From contig OZ020514.1 in NCBI GenBank assembly GCA_963971425.1, forward strand, positions 47,211,527 to 47,275,526: a stretch of DNA of 64,000 nucleotides, in the 5' to 3' direction. This document shows positions 12,067-57,683 of the stretch, one piece after another. This stretch comes from Bryoerythrophyllum caledonicum (taxonomy: Eukaryota; Streptophyta; Bryopsida; Pottiales; Pottiaceae). The position numbers and the translations under genes were made by a program. Each line of letters opens with the position of its first letter. Within the stretch, counting starts at the first letter, position 1. The notes under the pieces were generated by a model, which searched no databases, was not told where the DNA came from, and saw nothing but the letters and a program-made list of their open reading frames with translations.

Positions 12067-12413
12067 AAAGTATAGCAAAGCCATGCCTAACGAGGCCACC
12101 TTTACTCGCCCCCTATGTCATCAATGAAGTCCATGTCTTGATGGCGCACCCGAATTCCTCCAAATTGCCACCACAATTGTTAGCGGTTTTTGTTTTGTGT
12201 CTTGCACCTAGGGCATCTCCATTTGTTGGTAGGAATCTGAACTAAGGGTGGTCTCAAGCATTGTATGTGCCACCTTGTAGAAAAATCGTTACACAATATC
12301 ATAGTGGCAGCTCCTTGAGCCCTACCACACAACATACACTTCAAACTAGCTGGAATGGAACTCAAATTGGGATCAACTCGCCCATCAATGTTTGGTAAGT
12401 GACACGGTGCACA
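12067..12413 (-). pseudogene. PHD finger at the C terminus of the element D polyprotein
   Basis: The minus-strand frame 12416-12180 reads CAPCHLPNIDG, then CMLCG, ATMILC, WHIQCLRPPL, IPTNKW and CPRC. This is the Cys4-His-Cys3 layout of a PHD finger: C-x2-C, C-x-n, W-H-x2-C, W-x-C-x2-C. One cysteine of the CxxC after ILC is altered (CNDF). PHD fingers typically read histone tails. Here the finger follows the integrase, the place where chromoviruses carry a chromodomain. A frame ending DFIDDIGGE and a stop near 12067 may be the end of the polyprotein. Confidence 0.75.
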
Positions 12414-12827
12414 CACTATAAGAAACCTGTGTTTTTTGTGATGTCACCTAAAATTGTAGACGTTCCGCTGGACATTAACATTTTGAAAAGTGACATCTAG
12501 AAAAACATCAGAATTAACAGGACGTTGTAAAAAACATGGAGATGTTAGTTGGCAAACATGGGCATGTTAGCTCCCAAACATGGGGATGTTAGCTACCAAA
12601 CACGGGGATGTTAGCTACCAAACATGGGGATGTTAGCAAGGACACGCGTAAATGTTGGCAGAAATGTTAAGGTGAACATTGTCTATGTTGAGTGCAATTT
12701 TTGCCATGTTTTGCATGTTTTGGTTGATCCAATTTTAGGTGATGTTTTCATGGACATCATCCCTGTTTTTTTAGACATTTTTCTGCGTTTTTTGGAACAT
12801 CACAAAAAACACGGGTTTCTTATAGTG
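12414..12827. mobile_element. CACTA-type MITE inside element D
   Basis: A 414-bp unit. The left terminus CACTATAAGAAACCTGTG and the right terminus (reverse complement CACTATAAGAAACCCGTG) continue as a near-perfect inverted repeat of about 30 bp including TTTTTTGTGATGT. The 3-bp duplication ACA lies at 12411-12413 and 12828-12830. CACTA ends plus 3-bp duplication are diagnostic of the CACTA/EnSpm superfamily. It encodes no transposase. Its insertion splits the codons just before the PHD finger of element D. Confidence 0.88.
12536..12645. repeat. Minisatellite inside the CACTA MITE
   Basis: Four to five imperfect copies of a roughly 23-bp unit around CAAACATGGGGATGTTAGCT. This is an internal expansion typical of non-autonomous CACTA derivatives. 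Confidence 0.8.
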
Positions 12828-12981
12828 ACAATTCCGAGTATGATTCTTTCAAATCTGTTCATCCCTTCCTTTTAATTCCAATACTCCGGTCGGAAGCACT
12901 CTCCGTACCCATAGAATAACATGTCCCGCTGGAACATCCAATGTTGTCGGAGCCCTCTGTTGCAAATAAACATAGTCACTT
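12828..12981 (-). pseudogene. Integrase C-terminal (SH3-like) domain of element D
   Basis: On the minus strand it reads GDYVYLQQRAPTTLDVPAGH, ILWVRRVLPTGVLELKGRDE, then a TGA. The pattern (GD-V-L, beta strands, GVLELKG) matches the small barrel that ends retroviral-type integrases. It joins exactly to the integrase core at 16331 when element A copy 1 is removed, and to the PHD finger at 12413 when the MITE is removed. Confidence 0.65.
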
Positions 12982-15900
12982 ATTAGAGTCTAAAACTCCC
13001 ACTTAGTTGCCCCTACCAAAAAAATGAGTTAAAATAGGGTTTTTAGTCTTATTAAATTAGAAAAGTAGTTAGTATTGTGTGGAATTAGATTAGATAGCGG
13101 ATAGTGAAAATAGGGAAATGCTTAAGTAGTTTATTAGGCTTATAGTGGTGATAAAACCGGGTCTTAAAATCACTAGTTTAAGTTCCAGAAAACAATTTCA
13201 AAAGAGTCCCGGAAGAGACCTCGGGATCTAAGTCTAAAATCATCACTTAACCTAAATTAGCTAGTTAAGTTTAGGAGGTAGTTAGAAGTAGTTTAGATCT
13301 TCTAGACGCTAATTCTTGTTTGAAAGAATTAGTAGTTAGTTGTAAGAGGAAAAGAAAAGACAAAAAAAAAAGAAAAAAAAGAATTTTTTTTTTAAAAAAT
13401 AAAAAATAAAAAATAATTTAAAAAAAAAACATACCCGGATATCAACCCGGGTATGAACTAGCCCGGTTACCAACCTGGGTATGGGCTGATACCCAGGTAT
13501 CACCCAAGCAGCAGCCCGGGTAGCTCCAGCCGTCCTGGCCGACCCCCTTTCTCTCCGAAATTGGACTTCTTCTCTCCAAAAACTCTTCCCTCCTCCAGCA
13601 ACTCTCTCTCCCTCCCTCTCTAAAATCTTACCCCCCCTCAAATTTTCTCCTCTACCTCCCTTTCTAGTTCTCTCTCTCTGTCTCTCATAGTATCTCCTTT
13701 TCTATCTATTTGGGTTTTTTTTGGAGTTGGGGTTTTGAAGAAGAGGTAGTCAAAGAAGAAGAAGAGGTGGTGCAACAAGGAGGAAGAAGAAGAAGAAGAA
13801 GAGGAGGCCTTTCTAGGATTTTTGGGTAGTGGAAGAGGTGCGTGTAAGCTAGGATTTGGTGGAAGAGGTGCACCCAAGCTAGGGTTTGGTGGAAGAGGTG
13901 CACGTTTCCTAGGGTTTGGTGATGGTGGAGATTTCTGGGATTTGTGGAGGTGGAGGAGATTAGTGGCCAAGGCGAGAAGATAAAAGAGACAAAAAAAGGA
14001 GATTGCGGGTGCAACGAGTAATTGGAAAACAAAGGTGACTCTTGCCCATGTTGAGTTTCTCTTGTTTGTGCAAATTTCTTGTTTGTAAGTCTTTTTCTAT
14101 CTTTTCTACCGGGGTGACTCCTCGGTAACATCCTCCCCGGTCTAGAGAAAAAGTCCTCCGGTGGGCTCTATCTAGAGCTTATTGTGACCTAGTATACATA
14201 TGAGTCTACATTAGTGTCATATTAATTGTTGTCTACTGTCCTAGCATTGTGGCAAATCATTCTTTTAAAGTTTTCTCCATCCTCCTATCATATCTACGTC
14301 TTGCCCGCATTTTCTATCTTTTTTCCGGTCTTCCCGATGAACCGGGAAAACCTTCTTCTAGGTCTTCGTCTCCCAAGTCCTCTCCTTGTTATAATTTTAT
14401 GTGACCTTGTGTTGTTAGTATGTTGTTGGATATGTGAGACACCTATATCTACATATTCTAGCAAAGTGTTCCGGAGTTGTCCACCGGTTGACTGGTAGAC
14501 TTGTGTTTCCGGGCCGTACCGGAGTTTGTGACAAGTTAATAGGGAGATTGGTCGAAGTACAGGCATTTTAAGGATATTGTCCACCCCGGACAACATGGCT
14601 CTACCGGTGAGTCGGATGAATTTCCCATCCTCTAAGGAGTAGGGTGTGAAGGTCAATGAAAGAAAAAGAAACCTCCCGGTAACTCCTATCGGGAAGGAAC
14701 TGGTAGACCTCCCGTCCTTAACCTCGGAGTCCTTGGTGAAGTCCTCTCTGGCCATACTAATTGAGCTTAAGGAGAGTCCGCATGTATCTATAGATACAGC
14801 CAACCTTCCAGTGGATATTCCCAATCCACTCGTAGACCTCCCGGTTGAGACATCCGACCTCCCGGGGGATTCTCTCAACTATGTGGGTAGTTCCAACTGT
14901 AGTGACAATCCCTACATGTATCAATTGGAAGAGTCTTCCGGTTGAATCTTTATCATATGTTATGTGTTATTGTTGATTTATCCTACCGGTTGGTGGGATG
15001 TTGTTTTAAGTTGCTAGATTTTAACACTAGAGTGAGAGTAGTGATGTCGATAGGGCCCATTGCACACACGGTCATTACCACTTGAGTGATTTCTCCGGCT
15101 ACTTACTTTTGTTAGGGAAAGGTTCACCGGTCCCGAGACCGGAAGTCTTCCGGTCTACCGGTCTACCGGTAATCCGCTAGTGACTAGGCTACCCTTGATT
15201 TTAGGATCTAGGTGCCGTTTGTCTTTTAGTGGATCCACTTTTGGAGGGTAGCTATTGACTTTAGTACACGCTCTAAATGCCATTTCCACCTTTTGGGGAT
15301 CTAGTTTTGGAGGGTAGCTGGTAGCCTTTGTGTATTTAAAGGGCCTTGGGCTCTTGTGTTGAGTACTCTTCTCTTTGCTGATTTGATCGTGTCTTGCCTG
15401 CATTGCTTGTGTCTAGAGTCTTTGTTGAGCTTGTGTGAATAGACCGAGAGAGTGTTGAGTCCTCTTAGTGTGTCTTTGCTAGGTGTGGAAGGTTGTGACT
15501 TATTGTGTGTTATGTGATTGAGTGTGAGTAAAGACATCCCGAGGGTGTAGGATGTCCATGATAGATAGGTAGAGTGAGATCCGGGGTCTATGCTCCAGAT
15601 CCTTCACTGGTGGGACCGAGAAGAGTTGCTTTAGCGGATGGGATCCGGGAAGCCCACGGCTATTTATGATAACCTCCCTTAAGTGGGAAGTGTTTGGATT
15701 GGTGGGGAGGAGGGGTAATATCCCCCTTCTCGGTACACCGAGAGAGATCCCGACTAAGCCTGAGTCCGGAGAATTCCGGGGTTGTTACCTTTGCAGTGGA
15801 CGAGTTTTGACGATTCCCGTGGAAGGTATTTTTGCTCATATGATTTGCTTAGTACTAACTTGTTGTGAGTCTTGTATCTTCTTGCTCTGATTCATTAGGT

Positions 15901-16330
15901 GTGGTTGTAGTTGGAACCCGGGCTTGCGTGACCGGTTTACCGAGACAAGTTCCCGGTAGATTGTGAAGATCGGTAAACCGGCTACAACCTTTTTAACTCT
16001 TTCAAGGTGTAGGATTAGATTGTGGATATTGTGGCCTCTGGACTGCAAGAAAGGAGGGCAGTGACTTTTCGGGCACTGTAAAAACTTACTGGGAAACTAT
16101 TCTGACGCTCAACAGAGTTTAACTGAAACACTTATGGTAACTTGTGACCAGTTACTAAGGTACCGGGGAAGCCATCCTCCGAGATGTACTGAGGTATTAA
16201 GTATGAATTGTTGTTAAGATTTAAAGAGCTTGATGCGCGATAAAAATCCTTGGAAACGATCTGGTAAGGTGGGCTTGCTTAAGGTTAATTTCGGTTAACT
16301 TTGAGAATTACAAACTACTAGACTATGACA
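12982..16330 (+). mobile_element. Element A copy 1, internally deleted
   Basis: A 3.35-kb unit starting near GAGTCTAAAACTCCCAC and ending TAGACTATGACA. It is flanked by CACTT (12977-12981) and CACCT (16331-16335), a 4/5 match to a target duplication. Next to its 3' end is ATAAAAATCCTTGGAAACGA, like the U5 end of Athila/Tat LTRs. No internal LTR pair is seen. It aligns with copy 2 (31405-41115) in the leader (13000-14595 against 31405-32957), the ORF end and the 3' region (14960-16330 against 40040-41115). It lacks about 1.2 kb of ORF present in copy 2. The leader contains homopolymer tracts, ACCCGGGTAT repeats (13430-13520) and a GAAGAGGTGCACG-type repeat (13820-13915). Confidence 0.65.
14595..14945 (+). 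pseudogene. Element A protein remnant, copy 1
   Basis: The ATG at 14595 corresponds to the copy 2 ATG at 32957. After 15 codons an in-frame TAG (14640-14642) occurs at the same place as in copy 2. The frame then continues to 14945 with a Val/Asp/Pro/Ser-rich low-complexity tail containing SIDTANLPVDIPNPLVDLPV. That tail corresponds to the SVDTPN repeat of copy 2. The central part of the protein is deleted. Function unknown. Confidence 0.45.
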
Positions 16331-17319
16331 CACCTGGAGCAAACCTTCGCAATTGAGGCCGGTAACCTCCTCCCCAAATGGTGGGGTAGTGTACAATGTC
16401 TCGATGTTGTGCAATTGCAAGGTTTTGTAATGCCATTGGCATCGCATGCTTAAACAACTCGGCTCTATTGTTGCATACTTCCATCCATGTGTCGGAATCA
16501 TCCATCTTGATTACTGCATGTATGTCTCTCTATGTTGTGGCTGGAAGCACAAGTTCTCGACCATACAACAAGAAATAAGGGGAAAAGGTTGCTAAAGACG
16601 CCTGCTTGCTAAAGCGGTATCCCATTGCCAACCATGGCAATTGTGCATCTCAACTCCTGTGATGTCCATGTTGTACACCATATTTCCTAAGGCTCCTGAC
16701 TGTTTGCACCATGCGTTCAGCCAATTCATCTGCCTCAAAGTAGTCGCGAGATGACAGTAGTCATGTAATCAATGTAAGCTTGTTCACAAAGAGCCTAAAA
16801 ATTTCCCTGAAACTCACGCCCTTGTTCCGTGAGCACTTCAGCTGGAGCCCCAAATCAACTGAGCACTCTATCTAGAAAGGCAAATGCGGCCCTTTCACTA
16901 AATTTATCAGGTGAAGCCACTAACTCAACCCATTTAGAGAAATACTCAATCATAACAAGTACATATTTATTATGATTTTTAGTAATTGGTAAAGGTCCTG
17001 CAAAATCGAGACTCCAACAAGATCCAAGACCCATCATGGGTAATGGTTGCAAACTAGGTGTTGGTGCATTGAAAGAAGCACGCACCCTATCACATAACTT
17101 ACATCGTGACACTAGCCGTTGTACCTCTGATTGCATACCAACCTACCAATATTGATTTTGAAGTAATCTGTAAGTCCGCTTGACTCCAAAATGGCCGAGG
17201 TCCTGGTGCACATGTAGCACAAGTTTCTCGCGCTCTGATGGTTCTGGAACCACCCGTTTCCTCCCATCTGGTAACTTCCTGAGTAAATGAACCCCTTCCC
17301 ATTCAAACCGTTTGGCCCG
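16331..17319 (-). pseudogene. Integrase of element D
   Basis: Zinc-binding N terminus: HQDLGHFGVKRT, then RCKLCDRV (the C-x2-C of the HHCC motif). The core follows: WSLDFAGPLP (first catalytic Asp), YVLVMIEYFSKWVEL, then EVLTEQGREFQG, where the second catalytic Asp of the usual TDQG is Glu. Further downstream the frame is broken but AERM-like and LLYGR-like blocks persist to 16331, where element A interrupts it. The family inserts cDNA in the nucleus. This copy is inactive. Confidence 0.8.
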
Positions 17320-18027
17320 TTAAAGAATCCGATCTCTTTCTTTGGATGTAACCTTGCTTGGCAACTCCATCGATCCCAGGTCTTCCAAAACTGGTCCATC
17401 TTCATAAATGTCCTTAGCGCCCCCAAACTCTTCTCTTCCTTTTTGATCGGTAGTAATCCGTTTGTATGAGTCCACATTCATCGCCAACAAACTCAAACAG
17501 TGAGAGGCATGCCACCTTGGCACCTCTTCTTCTTCTCCTTCACTAACATGCCACCGTGCCCATGTGGAGTTCCTTTGACTCGGGCATGGATTTTTACTCA
17601 GACCATTTGGGTCCATGTTTACCAGTCGTGCCCGGTGCACTACTTTAAAATCATATTCTTGTAACATTAGTGCCCATCTTGCAAGCTTTCCGGTAAGCTT
17701 ATCAGATTCCATTAGCTACTTCAAAGGCTGATGATCTGTTACCATTAGAAATTCATTACCATACAAGTAACATCAAGAATGACCAATGGCCCAAACTGCC
17801 GCTAAGCATTCCCCTTCATATGAATTGTATTGTGCTTCGGCATTATTGTTTGACTAGCTAGCGTATACTACCACAAACTCCTTGCCCTCATCATCCATCT
17901 CAGTGAGGACCGCACCAATGCCTAAAGTTCTCCAATCCGTATGCAATTGATGAGCCCTGCGAGGAATTGGTTGCCGCAAAATAGGTGCGGACGCCAATCG
18001 AGCCATCAACTCTTGAAATACAACTTC
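17320..18027 (-). pseudogene. RNase H domain of element D
   Basis: Readable in order: LHTDWRTLGIGAVLTEMDD (first Asp), FVVVYAS, YNSYEGECLAAVWAI (Glu), YLYGNEFLMVTDHQPLK (second Asp), and the C-terminal ARWALMLQEYDFKVVHRA. Three or more stops lie between these blocks. The domain degrades the RNA strand during reverse transcription. It directly follows the RT and precedes integrase, the Ty3/gypsy order. Confidence 0.85.
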
Positions 18028-19095
18028 TTACTCTTCACCCCACCTCCACTCTTGATCATTTTTTGTCAACATGGTCAAAGCCTTAGCAATGCGACTGAAG
18101 AAAGCTACAAACTTCCTATAGTAATTTGCTAGTCCTAGAAAGGCCCGCAATCTATTTTCATCCATTGGTCTTGGAATCCCATTCAATGCCTCTACCTTAC
18201 TCTTGATAACTCCCAAACCCCTAGGGTATATCATGTCGCCTAAATATTCCACTTATGAGTAGAAGAATGTGCATTTGCTTGGATGCAACTTGAGCCCATG
18301 CTGCCTCAACCGTTCCAACACCGCAAGTATATGTCTCTGATGCTCCTTCCTATTCTTGCTGAAGATAATGATATCATTGATGTAACACCGAGCAAACGGT
18401 AACCCTGCTAATATCTTGTCCATGACCCTTAGAAACTCCACAGGAGTGGTCTTCAATCCAAAAGGTGAAAATTTTCATTAATAAAGTTTGTCCTTGCCAA
18501 CCCATCAATCCTCCAAAATGCCGTCTTTTGCTTGTCTTGTTCTCTAATGGGTAATTGGTGATAATTTGATATCAGATCTAATGTGCTAAACACTTTAGCT
18601 TGCCCAATTGAGTCGAAAATCTCCTCAGGTGTTGGCATTGCATATTTGTCTCATCGTGTGTTTGTTTATAGGCCTATAGTCCCCGCACGTTCTCTTCTTA
18701 GTCCAATTGCCATAGATATCCTTTTTAGAAGGCATAACTGTTGCAAAGGCATACTCGCCATCGGGAAGTTCTACTAGTCCTGCATCTAGCAATTCCATGG
18801 TCCGATTATTGATTAATCCCCTCTCCGCTTCGTTGTACCGATAAGGTTTGCAAAAGATCGGAGCATCATCCTACAAATCGATCGGAGCATCATCCTACAA
18901 ATCGATCCTCACTTCCAATCCCTTGAGAATTCCCAAATCCTTCAACCCAAATGCAAAGCAACCTTTAAATTTCTTCAAAAATTGTTGTTCTTCACGCCAT
19001 TCTTCCTCCCCTTCAAGATCCACATTTGGCTTCCAATTGTCTATTGTTAGTGGTGTCTTGACTTCTTTCTCAGTGGATGGCGTCTTCCTTGACTG
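18028..19095 (-). pseudogene. Reverse transcriptase of element D, catalytic Asp changed
   Basis: RT blocks in order: PYRYNEAERGLINNRTMELL, an LVELPDGEYA-type block, KKRTCGDYRPINKHT, IFDSIGQAKVFSTLDLISNY (first catalytic Asp), then a frameshift near 18470. After it come KTTPVEFLRVMDKILAGL and CYINDIIIFSKN. The usual YIDD box is YIND, because the codon at 18376-18378 is AAT instead of GAT. A small tandem duplication (18858-18907, CGGAGCATCATCCTACAAAT twice) repeats part of the DDAPI segment at the start of the domain. Confidence 0.85.
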
Positions 19096-19399
19096 CTAAG
19101 CAATGTCAATGGACTCGGAGTCTTCATGGTCCTCCATGCCCATCATGCTCATCAGTCTCCCTTCGACTTCTCCATAATCCCCAATGTCATCCTCTTTTGC
19201 AAAGAGGATCCTATCCATGAGACTCTCCAACGTCTCACTAGCCGCCGTTGTTCCCCCATAGTTGTCCTTTTGCCCCTTGCGAGTCATATCATCAAAATTT
19301 GATATACCCCAATTTTTCCAAGGCTGCCAAGGCTCCCCACGTTTGCCCCTAGCCATGTCTTTTTCCGCCCCGGGAAGAGGTGGCTTCTGCAAAGCAGCC
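19096..19399 (-). pseudogene. Acidic linker between methyltransferase and RT in element D
   Basis: Open continuation of the 19096-19644 frame. It is basic around GKRGEPWQPWKNWG, then acidic (FAKEDDIGDYGEVEG, MEDHEDSESIDIA). No domain is recognised. It ends at a stop at 19096, after which the sequence runs on to the RT (KTPLTIDNWKPNVDLEGEE). Confidence 0.5.
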
Positions 19400-20551
19400 C
19401 GTAAGGCATCATAGTGGCACCTAATGATTGACATGGCGTCCATGCATTGCTGCTCCACTATGGCAATAGCAATGAGCCACGTAAGACAATTGAGGTCCAT
19501 AGCTTGACCCAAGAGCATGCGCCTTTGGTTTTCACTAATGGAATGAGCTGGCAAGTGTGTAGTCCCTGAAAAAAACTCGATAGCTCTATCTAGTTCATCA
19601 GCATTGGGTTCCTCTGTAATGTAGTCCGCACCACTTGTGTCCAAAATAGTGTCTAGACCATCACCGCAAAAACCATAAGATCTGGGAAAACTAACCTATG
19701 TAGGCAAAGCCTTCCATGGGTGGCCAATTGTGTTGACAAGAGCGTTAGGTGGTTTGTCATCCCACCGCACATGTCTAGGTGTCATGTGTGGGTGTAGAAT
19801 GTCTTGAACCAACAAGTTCTGAGGCCGTTCCTTGTGGTGGTAAGCGGCTTTGAGTAAAGAGGTGGGAACTAAATTAGTCCACCACGAACGAGCATGATGA
19901 GCTCGTAAACCTATCTAGGCTGCATCAATTAAAGTAGATGGACCAAAAATGGCCTTTATCTGCTTTAAATTGGCCCAATTCTTTTCGAGAGAGACTTCAA
20001 GATGATTGGCACATTCTCGATGAGATAACCAAGGCCCTCTACTTGCATCACCTATAAAATGTGCAAGATCTGGACTAGCTCTTGGAATAACGCACTCCGT
20101 TTGTCGTGAAGCTCATTCAATTGCCTGCCATGGATAATCCTTGGCATGGCTAGCCTGCAATGACCAAATCTACAAGTCCATGGGATTGCAATTGGGCATC
20201 ATTAATCAGATAAATATCAGGTGCCAATGCGGTAAATGTAGTTTTGGTTGCTTCACCAGGAAGCATGTGGGGATAGCGCTTGTGTAGCTTCCGAATATGC
20301 TCAATAGTCACTCGTTTGGCTACCGGGTCATTGTCCACATAATGATAGGTGTGGGCTCTGATGCCAGCCTGTAAAACCGTTGCAAGCCCTCTTGCAATAC
20401 CTCCTAACAACTCCAAAAGAAAGATGTCCTTCGTGGATGGTGTCCATGCAATTGGCCGGGTCAAAATATGACTTGTTGTTTGTTGTACGGTATCGCCTCT
20501 ATCTTCCAAATTGCTCAGGGCCTCAATTGCCCACACCTTTTCCATCCTCAC
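19400..20551 (-). pseudogene. DNA (cytosine-5) methyltransferase domain inside element D
   Basis: Classic C5-methyltransferase motifs appear in order on the minus strand. Motif I is LLELLGGIARGLATVLQAG (about 20430-20370). The motif II-III region is YHYVDNDPVAKR, and HGLVDLVIAG precedes motif IV. Motif IV is PCQGLSMAG, with the catalytic Cys codon at 20144-20146. Motif VI is YLIENVPIILKSL (Glu-Asn-Val at 20010-20018). Then come IGLRAHHARSWWTNL (motif VIII region), and LLGQAMDLNCLTWLIA near 19500 (motif X). The codon before PCQG is TAG (20150-20152) where the family has Trp, and frames shift after motif IV. Length is about 350 codons, normal for a catalytic domain. It lies between protease and RT. 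Known families would methylate CG or CHG sites; element-borne enzymes of this kind have been reported in charophyte and dinoflagellate retrotransposons. Confidence 0.87.
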
Positions 20552-20575: not shown

Positions 20576-21565
20576 TTAAGACGTCCATAAGGTGGCCGCT
20601 TGTAGCACCTTCGCCAAGTGAATTTTCCTGCCACTAGCTGTAATGGAACACTTAGCTGATGCTGCCATTTCTGGTTGAATGATCCACTCATCCAACACCT
20701 CTCCTTCTTTGACCTCCGCAACCATGCCACACTCCATATGATAACCTTCTTCTCCATGCACGAATTGTGTGGGCAACATGGCTTGCCGTCCATCACCAGC
20801 CTGCCATTCCGGTTTATAAAAAGCCATTTCATTCCAAAAATCAATCACAAATCCCATGGGATACAATATGGTAGCTCCCACAAAGACATTGTATGACTCT
20901 GCATGAGTGACAATGGCCTTGGCTTTGATGGAGCTTGCATCCATCACGTCGTTTGGCCAGAATTGGAGAAGGAGTTCCTTCATAGTAATGTTGGCGACTA
21001 CCTCGGATCCGCCCATTGATGTGTTGATGGTGAACATGCACTTCTCTAATGCCCCCTTATGCAACTCTAACCGTTCAATGGCTGCTTTGTCCAACATCAA
21101 CGATTGGGCCCTAGAATCCAGCAAAACCCTCCGAGGTGTAAACAACCTTCTTTGTGGTCCTACAATTTGCACCACACCCTTGGAGTTATCCACCAATACT
21201 ACTCCGGGGACAATAGAAGACCGTTCAATGGTATGTCTTTGAGATAAAGTATTGAGCTGCGCCGCTGCTGCCTCCAAGGTGGTATCCTCAAGTGACTTCA
21301 AATCCTCATCACTCTTGTCCACCTCAACTTTCATAGTCGTCACTAATGAACCTTGCTTTTTTAAACACATAGCAGCGGTTGTCTCAAATATAGTAGCGAC
21401 ATCAAACCCTAACGTCTTCAACATTTGTGTGGTGAATACCGGTGTTTGACACAATGTAGTGGCCACCAACATCTTGTCTAACCGTTGCCCTTGGTAGTCG
21501 AAACGTAAAATTTCAAAGAATGACAGAATAGGGTTGAATAAAGGCTCACGAGGCTTTTCCCCCAC
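20576..21565 (-). pseudogene. Gag C-terminal region and retropepsin of element D
   Basis: An uninterrupted 329-codon frame. Residues 1-75 (LFNPILSFFEILRFDYQGQR, MLKTLGFDVATIFE) form a helical gag-like part, followed by an acidic linker. Residues about 145-265 form an aspartic protease: RRVLLDSRAQSLML carries the catalytic Asp but DSR replaces DSG. It continues with TINTSMGGSEVVA and NVFVGATILYPMGFVIDFW, equivalent to the second beta-hairpin. Protease processes the polyprotein in this family. The changed Gly should impair it. Confidence 0.65.
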
Positions 21566-22880
21566 CTTCTATTTATCCCTATCTTCCGTTGCCGAGGAAC
21601 TGTCTCCTTCATCCTTTACAGCTGACTCCCCTTCATCAACAATTTCTCCTTAATGATCAGCCGTGCAGGTTTTTGTCCGCCAAAACCAATGGCTCCTCCA
21701 AACAAATCCTTGAAGTTTGGTGCCCAATGCCGCTGGAAGATCTCAATCTCCGCTTTGTACCGCACCTCAAACTCAACATAATCATGCACATAAGCCCCCT
21801 CCAAATGCTAAAATAATGCTTGCCAAGTACTGAATGGATTAAACAAAGCTTTGCGCTCCGCTTGGCCATTGCACCATCCCCCAAACTCAATGATGAAGTC
21901 ATCAAGCTCAATGGTGCCCACGACTTTTGAAAACCAACGAATCCCTCAAGAAGCGCCATAGACGTGCCCCATGTCGTCGTCACTATCGTATGGATCAAAC
22001 CAACCTCCTTGGTCCTCCTCCTCAACAGTATCGGTGTCCTTCACCTCCTTCTCAGCAATTACTTCCTCCACGGAAGTCTCTACTTCTTCTTCAGGTCCTG
22101 GTACATGTGGTGGGCTCCTCTCTTGGAACGTCCGTCCGCCTGAGTGATGCCCACTAGTGTATCTAGTTTGAGCAATTTCCTAGGGGATATACAAACCCCA
22201 CAAAGGTCCCGATCCTCGCACCGCGGGGTAGTAAATGGTAGGAGCAATCTCAAAATCTAACTCGTGGTCTGTGCGCAACTCCACCACCCTTGTTGGTCGT
22301 CCCAGCCAACCGTCTTCTTCACGATGCCATACACTGTGGAGAACGTAGCCACTCACCCTATACTCTGTGAATGTCAAGGAGAAATGTGGCAACCCTGGCG
22401 GTTGTGTCTTCTACACCCAAGCCAACGTCCCACGGGTTTGTGAGTTACTCACAACTAAGGTGTCTTCCTCTACCACAAAGTCTTCAAACCTCACAAATTT
22501 CTCATTGCGTGCCCTTAGAGAGATGTAATCTACCCGCCGGTCCTTGAGCTTCTGTACTTCAGCAAAACCTCCCTCACGAGCCCAATACTCGATTGCTTGA
22601 TCACTACGTACCTTGGTCCCTGGCTCTCCAAACGGCTGATGTTGAATGCGTGCTTCTGCAAGAGCTGATCTCACAAACGGTGCAGTGGTAACAACTCACA
22701 CGTTGTCTTCTACTTGTACACCTTAGAATATCCGTACGGTGGTTCAATAGTAACCTCTATCGGTCTCCCTACAAACCCAAGTTGAGTATCCCTCGCAATT
22801 TCACCGTAGATCTGAATCCTCCGTACCTCGATGTCAAGTCCTCCACCCACTATAGTGCCATCTCCCTTAAAACCCCATCA
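21566..22880 (-). pseudogene. N-terminal gag-like part of the element D polyprotein
   Basis: Same-strand frames that connect with stops at 22411 and 22180 and a few shifts. Blocks include RVDYISLRARNEKFVRFEDF, FSLTFTEYRVSGYVLHSVWH, LDFEIAPTIYYPAV, an acidic stretch near 22030, ELDDFIIEFGGWCNGQAERK and HLEGAYVHDYVEFEVRYKAE. No zinc knuckle is visible. Its place ahead of protease makes it gag or gag-like. The first recognisable coding lies near 22860 (IEVRRIQIYGEIARDTQLGF). The start codon is not identifiable. Confidence 0.5.
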
Positions 22881-56811: not shown

Positions 56812-57683
56812 CTAATAATCGGATATCATTCTACTCACTCCTCGAACCAAATTCCTAGTATCTATCATACTAATTTTCAAATCCTGGTATTTTTCTATCT
56901 GAGATACTAATCTATCACTAATTTGAACTGAACTACCAATACGAGTATACTGAGAACTTGTAATAGAGCTAAATGTTCTATGTTCATCCCTATTAGCCCT
57001 CCATATAACTTCTGTAGCTCCATCACAAAAATTTATATATACTTTGTATGAAACTACAAAAAATTCCCCACCTTTATAATCAAATCCCAACTCCAGTGCT
57101 TCTTTAGTGGTCTTCTGAAATAATCGAGGTGACAAATTTTGAAATTGGTTTTGATAAAAACCCGCAATCCAACCAATTTCTTCTTGATCACAAACCCATT
57201 CCAAAATTCCATCCTCCTTCCGTTGTAAATAATCACTTGGAACATACTTTCCAAATAATAATGATTTCCCAGGTAATCCCTGTTCCAAATGCCAACCTAC
57301 TGCAAACATTTTACCATTGCCTTCTTCGAAGCTCCATTACATTTGATCTCCCTCACATTTTTATGAATATGAGAGAAATCTGTAGATAGCCTCTCAAAAT
57401 CCTTAAATTCACAACTATTCATTATGTGAAATGGTGTAAATTTCACAATGAGTACTACATCCTTTGATTCCTCATCAACAATATTAACAGTACCATGATC
57501 TATAATCAAGGCTCCATTCATTAATTCTGAAACATCCCATTTTTCCACCCTCTTGCAAAATTCAATCCTAGGCCTTTCTTGAGAAAACATTCTTGCGGCA
57601 TCCACTGCCTTCCATTTCATTAACTTGGATTTCTCATTTCCTTTCTTGTTCTTCTTTATACTACAAAGAAGAAAGTCAAACAT
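56812..57683 (-). pseudogene. Unrecognised protein in two overlapping frames
   Basis: Frame 1 (57683-57297): WKAVDAARMFSQERPRIEFC, VEKWDVSELMNGALIIDHGT, VVLIVKFTPFHIMN, FSHIHKNVREIKCNG. A one-base shift near 57325-57335 leads to frame 2 (57309-56812): GKMFAVGWHLEQGLPGKSLL, IGWIAGFYQNQFQNLSPRLF, NFCDGATEVIWRANRDEHRT, SQYTRIGSSVQISDRLVSQI, ending at a stop at 56812. Total about 290 residues with hardly any other damage, unusual in this window. The order (G-KMFAVGW ... G-YVP ... E-G-IAGFY---F--LSP--F) reminds me faintly of the N-terminal half of TET/JBP-like dioxygenases in fungal and plant transposon neighbourhoods. No HxD iron-binding motif is visible, so this is only a hint. Confidence 0.5.

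Follow-up and report, generated by a model that had tools for sequence, protein, structure and literature searches.

A DNMT3-like cytosine methyltransferase ahead of a conserved stop codon in a Ty3/gypsy-type retrotransposon family of a moss genome

The window analyzed here, a stretch of 64,000 nucleotides from the genome of Bryoerythrophyllum caledonicum (contig OZ020514.1; C1:47211527-47275526 of a 437-Mb assembly), carries on its minus strand an old Ty3/gypsy-type retrotransposon copy, now dead, with a cytosine-5 (C5) DNA methyltransferase (MTase) domain. The joint identification of the element and of the MTase is nearly certain. The best overall explanation, which we consider highly probable, is a gypsy family with two open reading frames (ORFs) in the same frame: ORF1, coding for Gag, protease and a DNMT3-like MTase, and, after a UAG stop codon, ORF2, coding for reverse transcriptase (RT), RNase H, integrase and a PHD finger. 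Hosts rely on DNA methylation as a main weapon against transposable elements; this lineage nevertheless has an MTase of its own and conserves it. The kind is already known from KnitGypsy-Dnmt3 of Klebsormidium nitens (de Mendoza et al., 2018; PMC5890265); against the literature found, the novelty lies in the hosts (liverworts, Sphagnum and this genome) and in two features, the stop codon and the PHD finger, which may prove general or may already be present in the Klebsormidium element. A single gypsy case in the literature might be no more than a curiosity. With a family that extends over liverworts, Sphagnum and this genome, has young copies and is under purifying selection, the role of the enzyme becomes open to tests in tractable plants, for example Marchantia.

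The window copy and its methyltransferase domain

The coding regions of the window copy run from gag at 21999 through protease, MTase, RT, RNase H and integrase to 16332; the integrase tail resumes after a 3.35-kb insert (12980-12828) and the PHD finger (12338-12204) follows a further insert of 0.4 kb. The components are as follows, the motif letters being read from the sequence and the motif names (I, IV, VI, VIII, X) being those that we presume to apply:

21470..21999, minus strand: N-terminal part of gag (tblastn with ORF1 of genome copy L036, residues 76-240 at 21999-21470)
20576..21472, minus strand: protease region (homology to ORF1 of relatives; reading frame open and shared with the last part of gag; degraded active-site motif)
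19444..20458, minus strand: DNMT3-like C5 MTase domain (PF00145 on the read-through; broken by stops and two frame changes)
20384..20416, minus strand: MTase motif I
20120..20149, minus strand: MTase motif IV, including the catalytic Cys
20004..20021, minus strand: MTase motif VI
19873..19905, minus strand: MTase motif VIII-like stretch
19477..19515, minus strand: MTase motif X
19090..19098, minus strand: stop TAG and CAGTCA (UAG CAR YYA), between the MTase frame and the RT frame, which are in phase (sequence and copies)
16332..19095, minus strand: RT, RNase H and integrase, broken (Pfam; 62% identity to ORF2 of L036)
12981..16331, no strand assigned: insert of about 3.35 kb in the integrase tail (flank comparison)
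12828..12980, minus strand: integrase tail beyond the insert (69% identity over 51 residues to ORF2 of L036)
12414..12827, no strand assigned: small insert resembling a miniature inverted-repeat transposable element, with 40-nucleotide inverted ends beginning CACTA (inverted repeat, flanks)
12204..12338, minus strand: PHD finger at the integrase C-terminus (PF00628, E 3.6e-9, 36.9 bits, cut-off 24; 57% identity to the end of L036 ORF2)

About 330 gag residues present in relatives are absent at 21470/21472, the tblastn match to L036 continuing from 21472 with residue 571 onward. The frames are also broken by stops and frame changes. The copy is dead, as the first-pass annotation of the window had stated. 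The gypsy-type order, with integrase after RNase H and with RT and RNase H of gypsy type, was found in the window pieces and in the whole ORF2 of three genome copies. Pfam matches in the window comprise RVT_1 (E 6.8e-15), RT_RNaseH_2 (E 5.8e-10) and rve (E 9.2e-5, under the rve cut-off); the protease region gave no Pfam match of its own in a scan of single open pieces. A target duplication and terminal repeats were looked for around the 3.35-kb insert and none were found.

The first-pass annotation had placed C5 MTase motifs in linear order on the minus strand, where we indeed find them, in broken pieces; the MTase frame extends beyond the profile-covered part to the TAG at 19098-19096. None of ten single open pieces (six of them from the MTase) matched DNA_methylase in the Pfam scan. 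When the breaks were bridged, with X at stops and frame breaks, the resulting read-through of 494 amino acids matched PF00145 above its cut-off (E 9.3e-8, 32.3 bits, cut-off 22), in keeping with the profile match to C5 enzymes that the annotation had anticipated; in the PDB it matched DNMT3A chains (E 1.1e-5). A first homologue search returned 18 proteins, the best at E 6e-151 and 60% identity, which excludes a chance match. A profile built from 14 relatives retrieved, among the 57 PDB chains listed, DNMT3A (E 3.3e-25), DNMT3B (8.9e-23), 4onj (6e-13; listed as a DNA methyltransferase, which we take to be a DRM), DRM2 (5e-10), HhaI (3.9e-8) and DNMT2 (8.3e-8); no chain named DNMT1 or chromomethylase was among these 57. 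Set beside the plant DNMT3 and DRM de novo methyltransferases, the domain is similar by profile match (DNMT3A best and DRM2 next among named eukaryotic DNA enzymes) and differs in that it sits in a mobile element and in its linear motif order, unlike that of the permuted DRM. By its best PDB profile match (DNMT3A/B) and this linear order the MTase is predicted to be of the DNMT3 type; hence, the initial call of an MTase stands, with its class corrected to DNMT3-like and not DNMT1- or chromomethylase-like.

Three protein searches, each scoring the best 8000 candidates, gave 18, 28 and 118 matches, or 145 different proteins, the last three of them weak. Those with a named host come from Marchantia polymorpha, Calypogeia fissa, Riccia sorocarpa, Sphagnum fallax and S. 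troendelagicum. No Klebsormidium sequence was found among the named matches, nor a cellular plant DNMT3 among the homologue matches. Among the sequences that cover the respective columns, the window excluded, 91 of 93 retain the catalytic Cys and 92/92 the Gln that follows; of motif VI, the Glu is kept in 103/109 and the Asn in 109/109; an Arg of motif VIII is kept in 101/110. Where listed, the PF00145 scores of relatives range from 22.1 to 52.7 bits; two relatives, P0037 and P0045, have no PF00145 row at E 0.001.

There are two distinct layouts among these relatives. The protease-MTase-RT layout is seen in P0036, L010 and the window, and P0027 shows MTase-RT. The RNase H-MTase-integrase layout is seen, by Pfam order, in P0038, P0039, P0040, P0041, P0043 and P0044; among the metagenome polyproteins P0038 to P0044 with this arrangement, several have a PHD finger followed by a long extension. 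In the MTase tree, which has one DNMT3A row as outgroup on a very long branch, the window pairs with P0001 (support 100/99) and the second layout holds together at 100/97. The RT tree, whose one outgroup branch is also very long, splits along these layouts as well (72/66 for the first, 94/97 for the second). With such outgroups, the trees are compatible with one or with two captures of an MTase by the layouts. A search of GTDB genomes returned 16 matches. Fifteen were weak; the sixteenth, L010, was strong and is a retrotransposon contig in a Synechococcales (cyanobacterial) bin, with ends that overlap by 48 nucleotides. We take L010 to be eukaryotic on the grounds that its ORF1 shares 89% identity with subfamily S3 of the window's genome. 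In IMG/VR no match to P0001 was found, and the 14-relative profile gave nine weak matches there at 26-43% identity. A search of open-licence literature found no report of such elements in bryophytes.

Genome copies, the junction stop codon and the split repeats

Intact relatives in the same genome had been suggested at the outset, and a full-genome search with PF00145 found relatives with open frames: of 123 scored matches (from 1053 first-look candidates), all above the cut-off, 20 lie in open frames of at least 1300 amino acids. We fetched 20 copies, namely 19 of these 20 long-frame copies and one with a frame of 1108 amino acids; the sample is thus mostly a choice of long frames that share ancestry. 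ORF1 is 1305-1371 amino acids long in 17/20 copies, 1108 in L052, and extends past the usual end in L042 and L048. ORF2, when whole, has 1041 or 1047 amino acids and begins directly behind the stop codon, without a shift of frame, and both frames are full length in half of the fetched copies (10/20). All four tested MTase motifs lie in the longest frame of 19/20 copies, and the MTase and protease motifs share one open frame in the same proportion (19/20). The proposal that the MTase is part of the polyprotein holds, with a correction of its placement: it lies upstream of a conserved stop, on the Gag-protease side, and a PHD finger is also present.

In three copies scanned with Pfam, ORF1 showed the MTase in 3/3, a CCHC knuckle in 2/3 and a protease in 0/3, the protease call resting on homology and a DSGAQ-like motif; ORF2 showed RT, RNase H, integrase (DDE core PF00665) and PHD in all three. 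Chromoviruses are gypsy elements with a chromodomain on the integrase. The present family is like them in having a histone-reader-type domain at the integrase C-terminus; here a PHD finger replaces the chromodomain, and an MTase and split repeats are added.

The genome copies fall into three subfamilies, S1, S2 and S3. The subfamily of the window is small: its 1480-nucleotide stretch matches 12 places including itself, five others over 1473-1479 nucleotides at 83-86% identity. One PF00145 match, L026 (C14, about 16.015-16.019 Mb), is a bacterial-looking MTase beside a transposase-like frame within a 22-Mb plant-like contig. It lies in bacterial-looking sequence, does not belong to the family, and is a case of contamination, misassembly or transfer.

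The gag-protease-MTase frame ends at a TAG, after which RT-RNase H-integrase continues in frame. Across genome copies, L010, the window and a sister of the window copy (81% identical over the stretch), TAG followed by CARYYA is found at 27/28 alignable junctions. Of 27 genome copies, 25 can be aligned here (L027 and L042 cannot and are outside the count), and 24 of these read TAG CAA CCA or TAG CAA TCA; L010 has TAG CAA TCA, the window TAG CAG TCA and its sister TAG CAA CCA. Against the background, the combination is rare: it occurs at 4/2004 TAGs in the window, junction included, and at 20/2437 in the fetched copies, 18 of which are junctions, leaving 2/2419 other TAGs. As the copies share ancestry, the 27 junctions are not independent; the varying bases inside a kept CARYYA pattern are the stronger argument. 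UAG-CARYYA is a readthrough context of plant viruses, and a soybean retroelement uses it as well. Hence, RT, RNase H and integrase are very probably expressed by readthrough of the UAG. Since a TAG in this context follows gag-protease-MTase, the MTase is expected at the level of Gag.

The flanks of 10 genome copies were examined. Eight have the arrangement A1-coding-B1-GC-A2-B2, starting with TGTC and ending with GACA, that is, split direct repeats of the form A-coding-B-A-B; 4-bp target duplications (AGGA, GGCA, CCTC, TAGT, GAAT, ATGC, GTGC and AGTG) lie outside the element in 8/10. Of the other two, L038 has B1-GC-A2-B2 with no A1 found, and L049 is without the junction. The eight complete copies are 9.95-12.0 kb long, and their A1 and A2 repeats are 98.7-100% identical, which points to recent insertion. 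Integrase would trim GC from each end, and B1-GC-A2 would store the joined, untrimmed ends. DIRS elements use a tyrosine recombinase and are not known to produce target duplications; membership in that group is ruled out by the DDE integrase core PF00665 in ORF2 and by the 4-bp duplications.

Selection, activity and possible roles

Ratios of nonsynonymous to synonymous substitution rates (dN/dS) were obtained by the Nei-Gojobori method as pairwise means over 21 sequences, with the MTases of L038 and L044 dropped for a motif pattern mismatch; the pairs are not independent. For the MTase, dN/dS is 0.040 between S1 and S2 (48 pairs), where dS, at 1.73, approaches saturation, and 0.089 between S3 and L010 (3 pairs; dS 0.30). 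Within subfamilies it is 0.14-0.24, values that the choice of open frames lowers. Purifying selection maintains the MTase, less strictly than the integrase.

Several observations weigh against the reading of an active, Gag-level MTase set before a readthrough stop. The integrase core, at a dN/dS of 0.016 between S1 and S2, is more constrained than the MTase, and the copies were chosen largely for long frames. In L048 CAG replaces TAG at the junction, and in P0036 the MTase runs into RT without a stop. Terminal repeats and DIRS-like split repeats were looked for in the window copy and not found. The CpG observed/expected ratio is 0.82 for L010, 0.55 for the window element and 0.67 for the whole window; L010 being only mildly CpG-poor, strong CpG self-methylation leaves no clear footprint. 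Finally, the KnitGypsy-Dnmt3 enzyme produced no methylation in yeast, a result that the study itself left open since human DNMT3B failed there too (PMC5890265).

Two rivals concern the structure of the element. That the MTase is a host gene or a separate transposon landed in this one element would fit the broken state of the window copy and nothing else, and is exceedingly improbable: beyond the frame that it shares with the protease motifs, the domain occupies the corresponding position in liverwort and metagenome relatives, and the five near-complete matches in the genome cover the whole stretch. A separate insertion with target duplications of its own was looked for and not found; the duplications flank the whole element. 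Splicing around the stop, or a stop-less fusion, could instead supply RT. The stop-less P0036 and L048 favor this, as do the public gene models P0022, P0027 and P0045, in which the MTase runs into RT with the segment around the stop missing, whether through splicing or through an annotation artefact. Nevertheless, ORF2 starts right after the TAG, in frame, wherever both frames are whole, and CARYYA is kept despite its varying bases (CAACCA, CAATCA, CAGTCA), so that this route is quite unlikely and readthrough is the better account.

The remaining rivals concern function. The fold might be retained for a role other than catalysis, for example in binding nucleic acids or in the structure of the particle, as the ambiguous yeast result and the few members without catalytic residues (Cys replaced in 2/93, motif VI Glu in 6/109) would allow; the retention of these residues in nearly all covering members, and of the four tested motifs in 19/20 copies, makes this improbable, and the MTase is likely to be catalytically active. 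An active enzyme could alternatively be selected for an effect on the host genome and not on element DNA, for example a general methylation that blurs the silencing signal. A Gag-level dose, if the stop is read correctly, would yield much enzyme, and the 2018 authors discuss effects of element MTases on host methylomes (PMC5890265); from general knowledge of LTR elements, most Gag-fused enzyme would remain in particles, and we hold this option to be rather unlikely, if somewhat less so than a non-catalytic role.

In the mechanism that we favor, most ribosomes would stop at the UAG, making Gag-protease-MTase the main product; the MTase would enter the particle at Gag level and occasional readthrough would add RT-RNase H-integrase-PHD. 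If active, the MTase would most likely methylate the element's own DNA (complementary DNA or circle) or nearby chromatin, and the PHD finger would direct the integrase toward a histone mark. We give self-methylation, as the function under selection, somewhat less than an even chance. More tentative still is the full scheme, in which a Gag-level MTase 'writer' and an integrase PHD 'reader' would make new copies pre-methylated and aimed at chosen chromatin in a DIRS-like split-repeat integrase element of land plants. The position of the MTase before the UAG predicts the amount and destination of the enzyme, and the PHD finger offers a separate handle on targeting.

The report of MTase-bearing retrotransposons in charophytes and dinoflagellates, which the first-pass annotation had mentioned, was cited correctly (PMC5890265). 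In that text, KnitGypsy-Dnmt3 has a gypsy domain set and an unpermuted Dnmt3-type domain, with its MTase under purifying selection (Ka/Ks under 0.2); the long terminal repeat (LTR) case is named Gypsy there and Copia in PMC12344493. The present family is like it in having a Dnmt3-type domain in a gypsy polyprotein, DIRS-style repeats (8/10 flanked copies) and purifying selection on the MTase. It differs in its hosts and in that the MTase stands with gag and protease before the UAG, whereas the paper's text puts Dnmt3 in the Pol ORF; the dose would hence be higher here. PHD finger, readthrough and protease are absent from the available text on KnitGypsy; this is a comparison of text only, and the features may be shared. 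The SymbioDIRS-Dnmt3 and SymbioLINE-Dnmt elements of Symbiodinium are likewise retrotransposons with a cytosine MTase, SymbioDIRS having Dnmt3 beside RT, and two SymbioDIRS enzymes methylated CG in yeast; they differ in their dinoflagellate hosts and in using tyrosine recombinase or LINE (long interspersed nuclear element) machinery, not a gypsy integrase (PMC5890265).

Other features of the window

A second relic of the MTase-element family, close to S3, lies on the minus strand at 49452-30024, split by other insertions: it retains an A repeat at 49452-49127 (76%), leader pieces to 47687 and gag at 41522-41123 and 31389-30024, with no MTase of its own seen. Another gypsy element on the minus strand (45863-42164) has protease, RT, RNase H, integrase and a Tf2-1-like SH3 tail, and gave no MTase match. 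An ORF at 56815-57336, minus strand, matches the Tet-like 2OG-Fe(II) oxygenase family PF20515 (E 1.2e-15) and is possibly an enzyme of the 5-methylcytosine-oxidizing type near the MTase element; no mobile-element domain was found in its neighbors. At about 23890-23600, also on the minus strand, translations inspected by eye show degraded polyubiquitin-like repeats, with a direct repeat spaced at 216 nucleotides.
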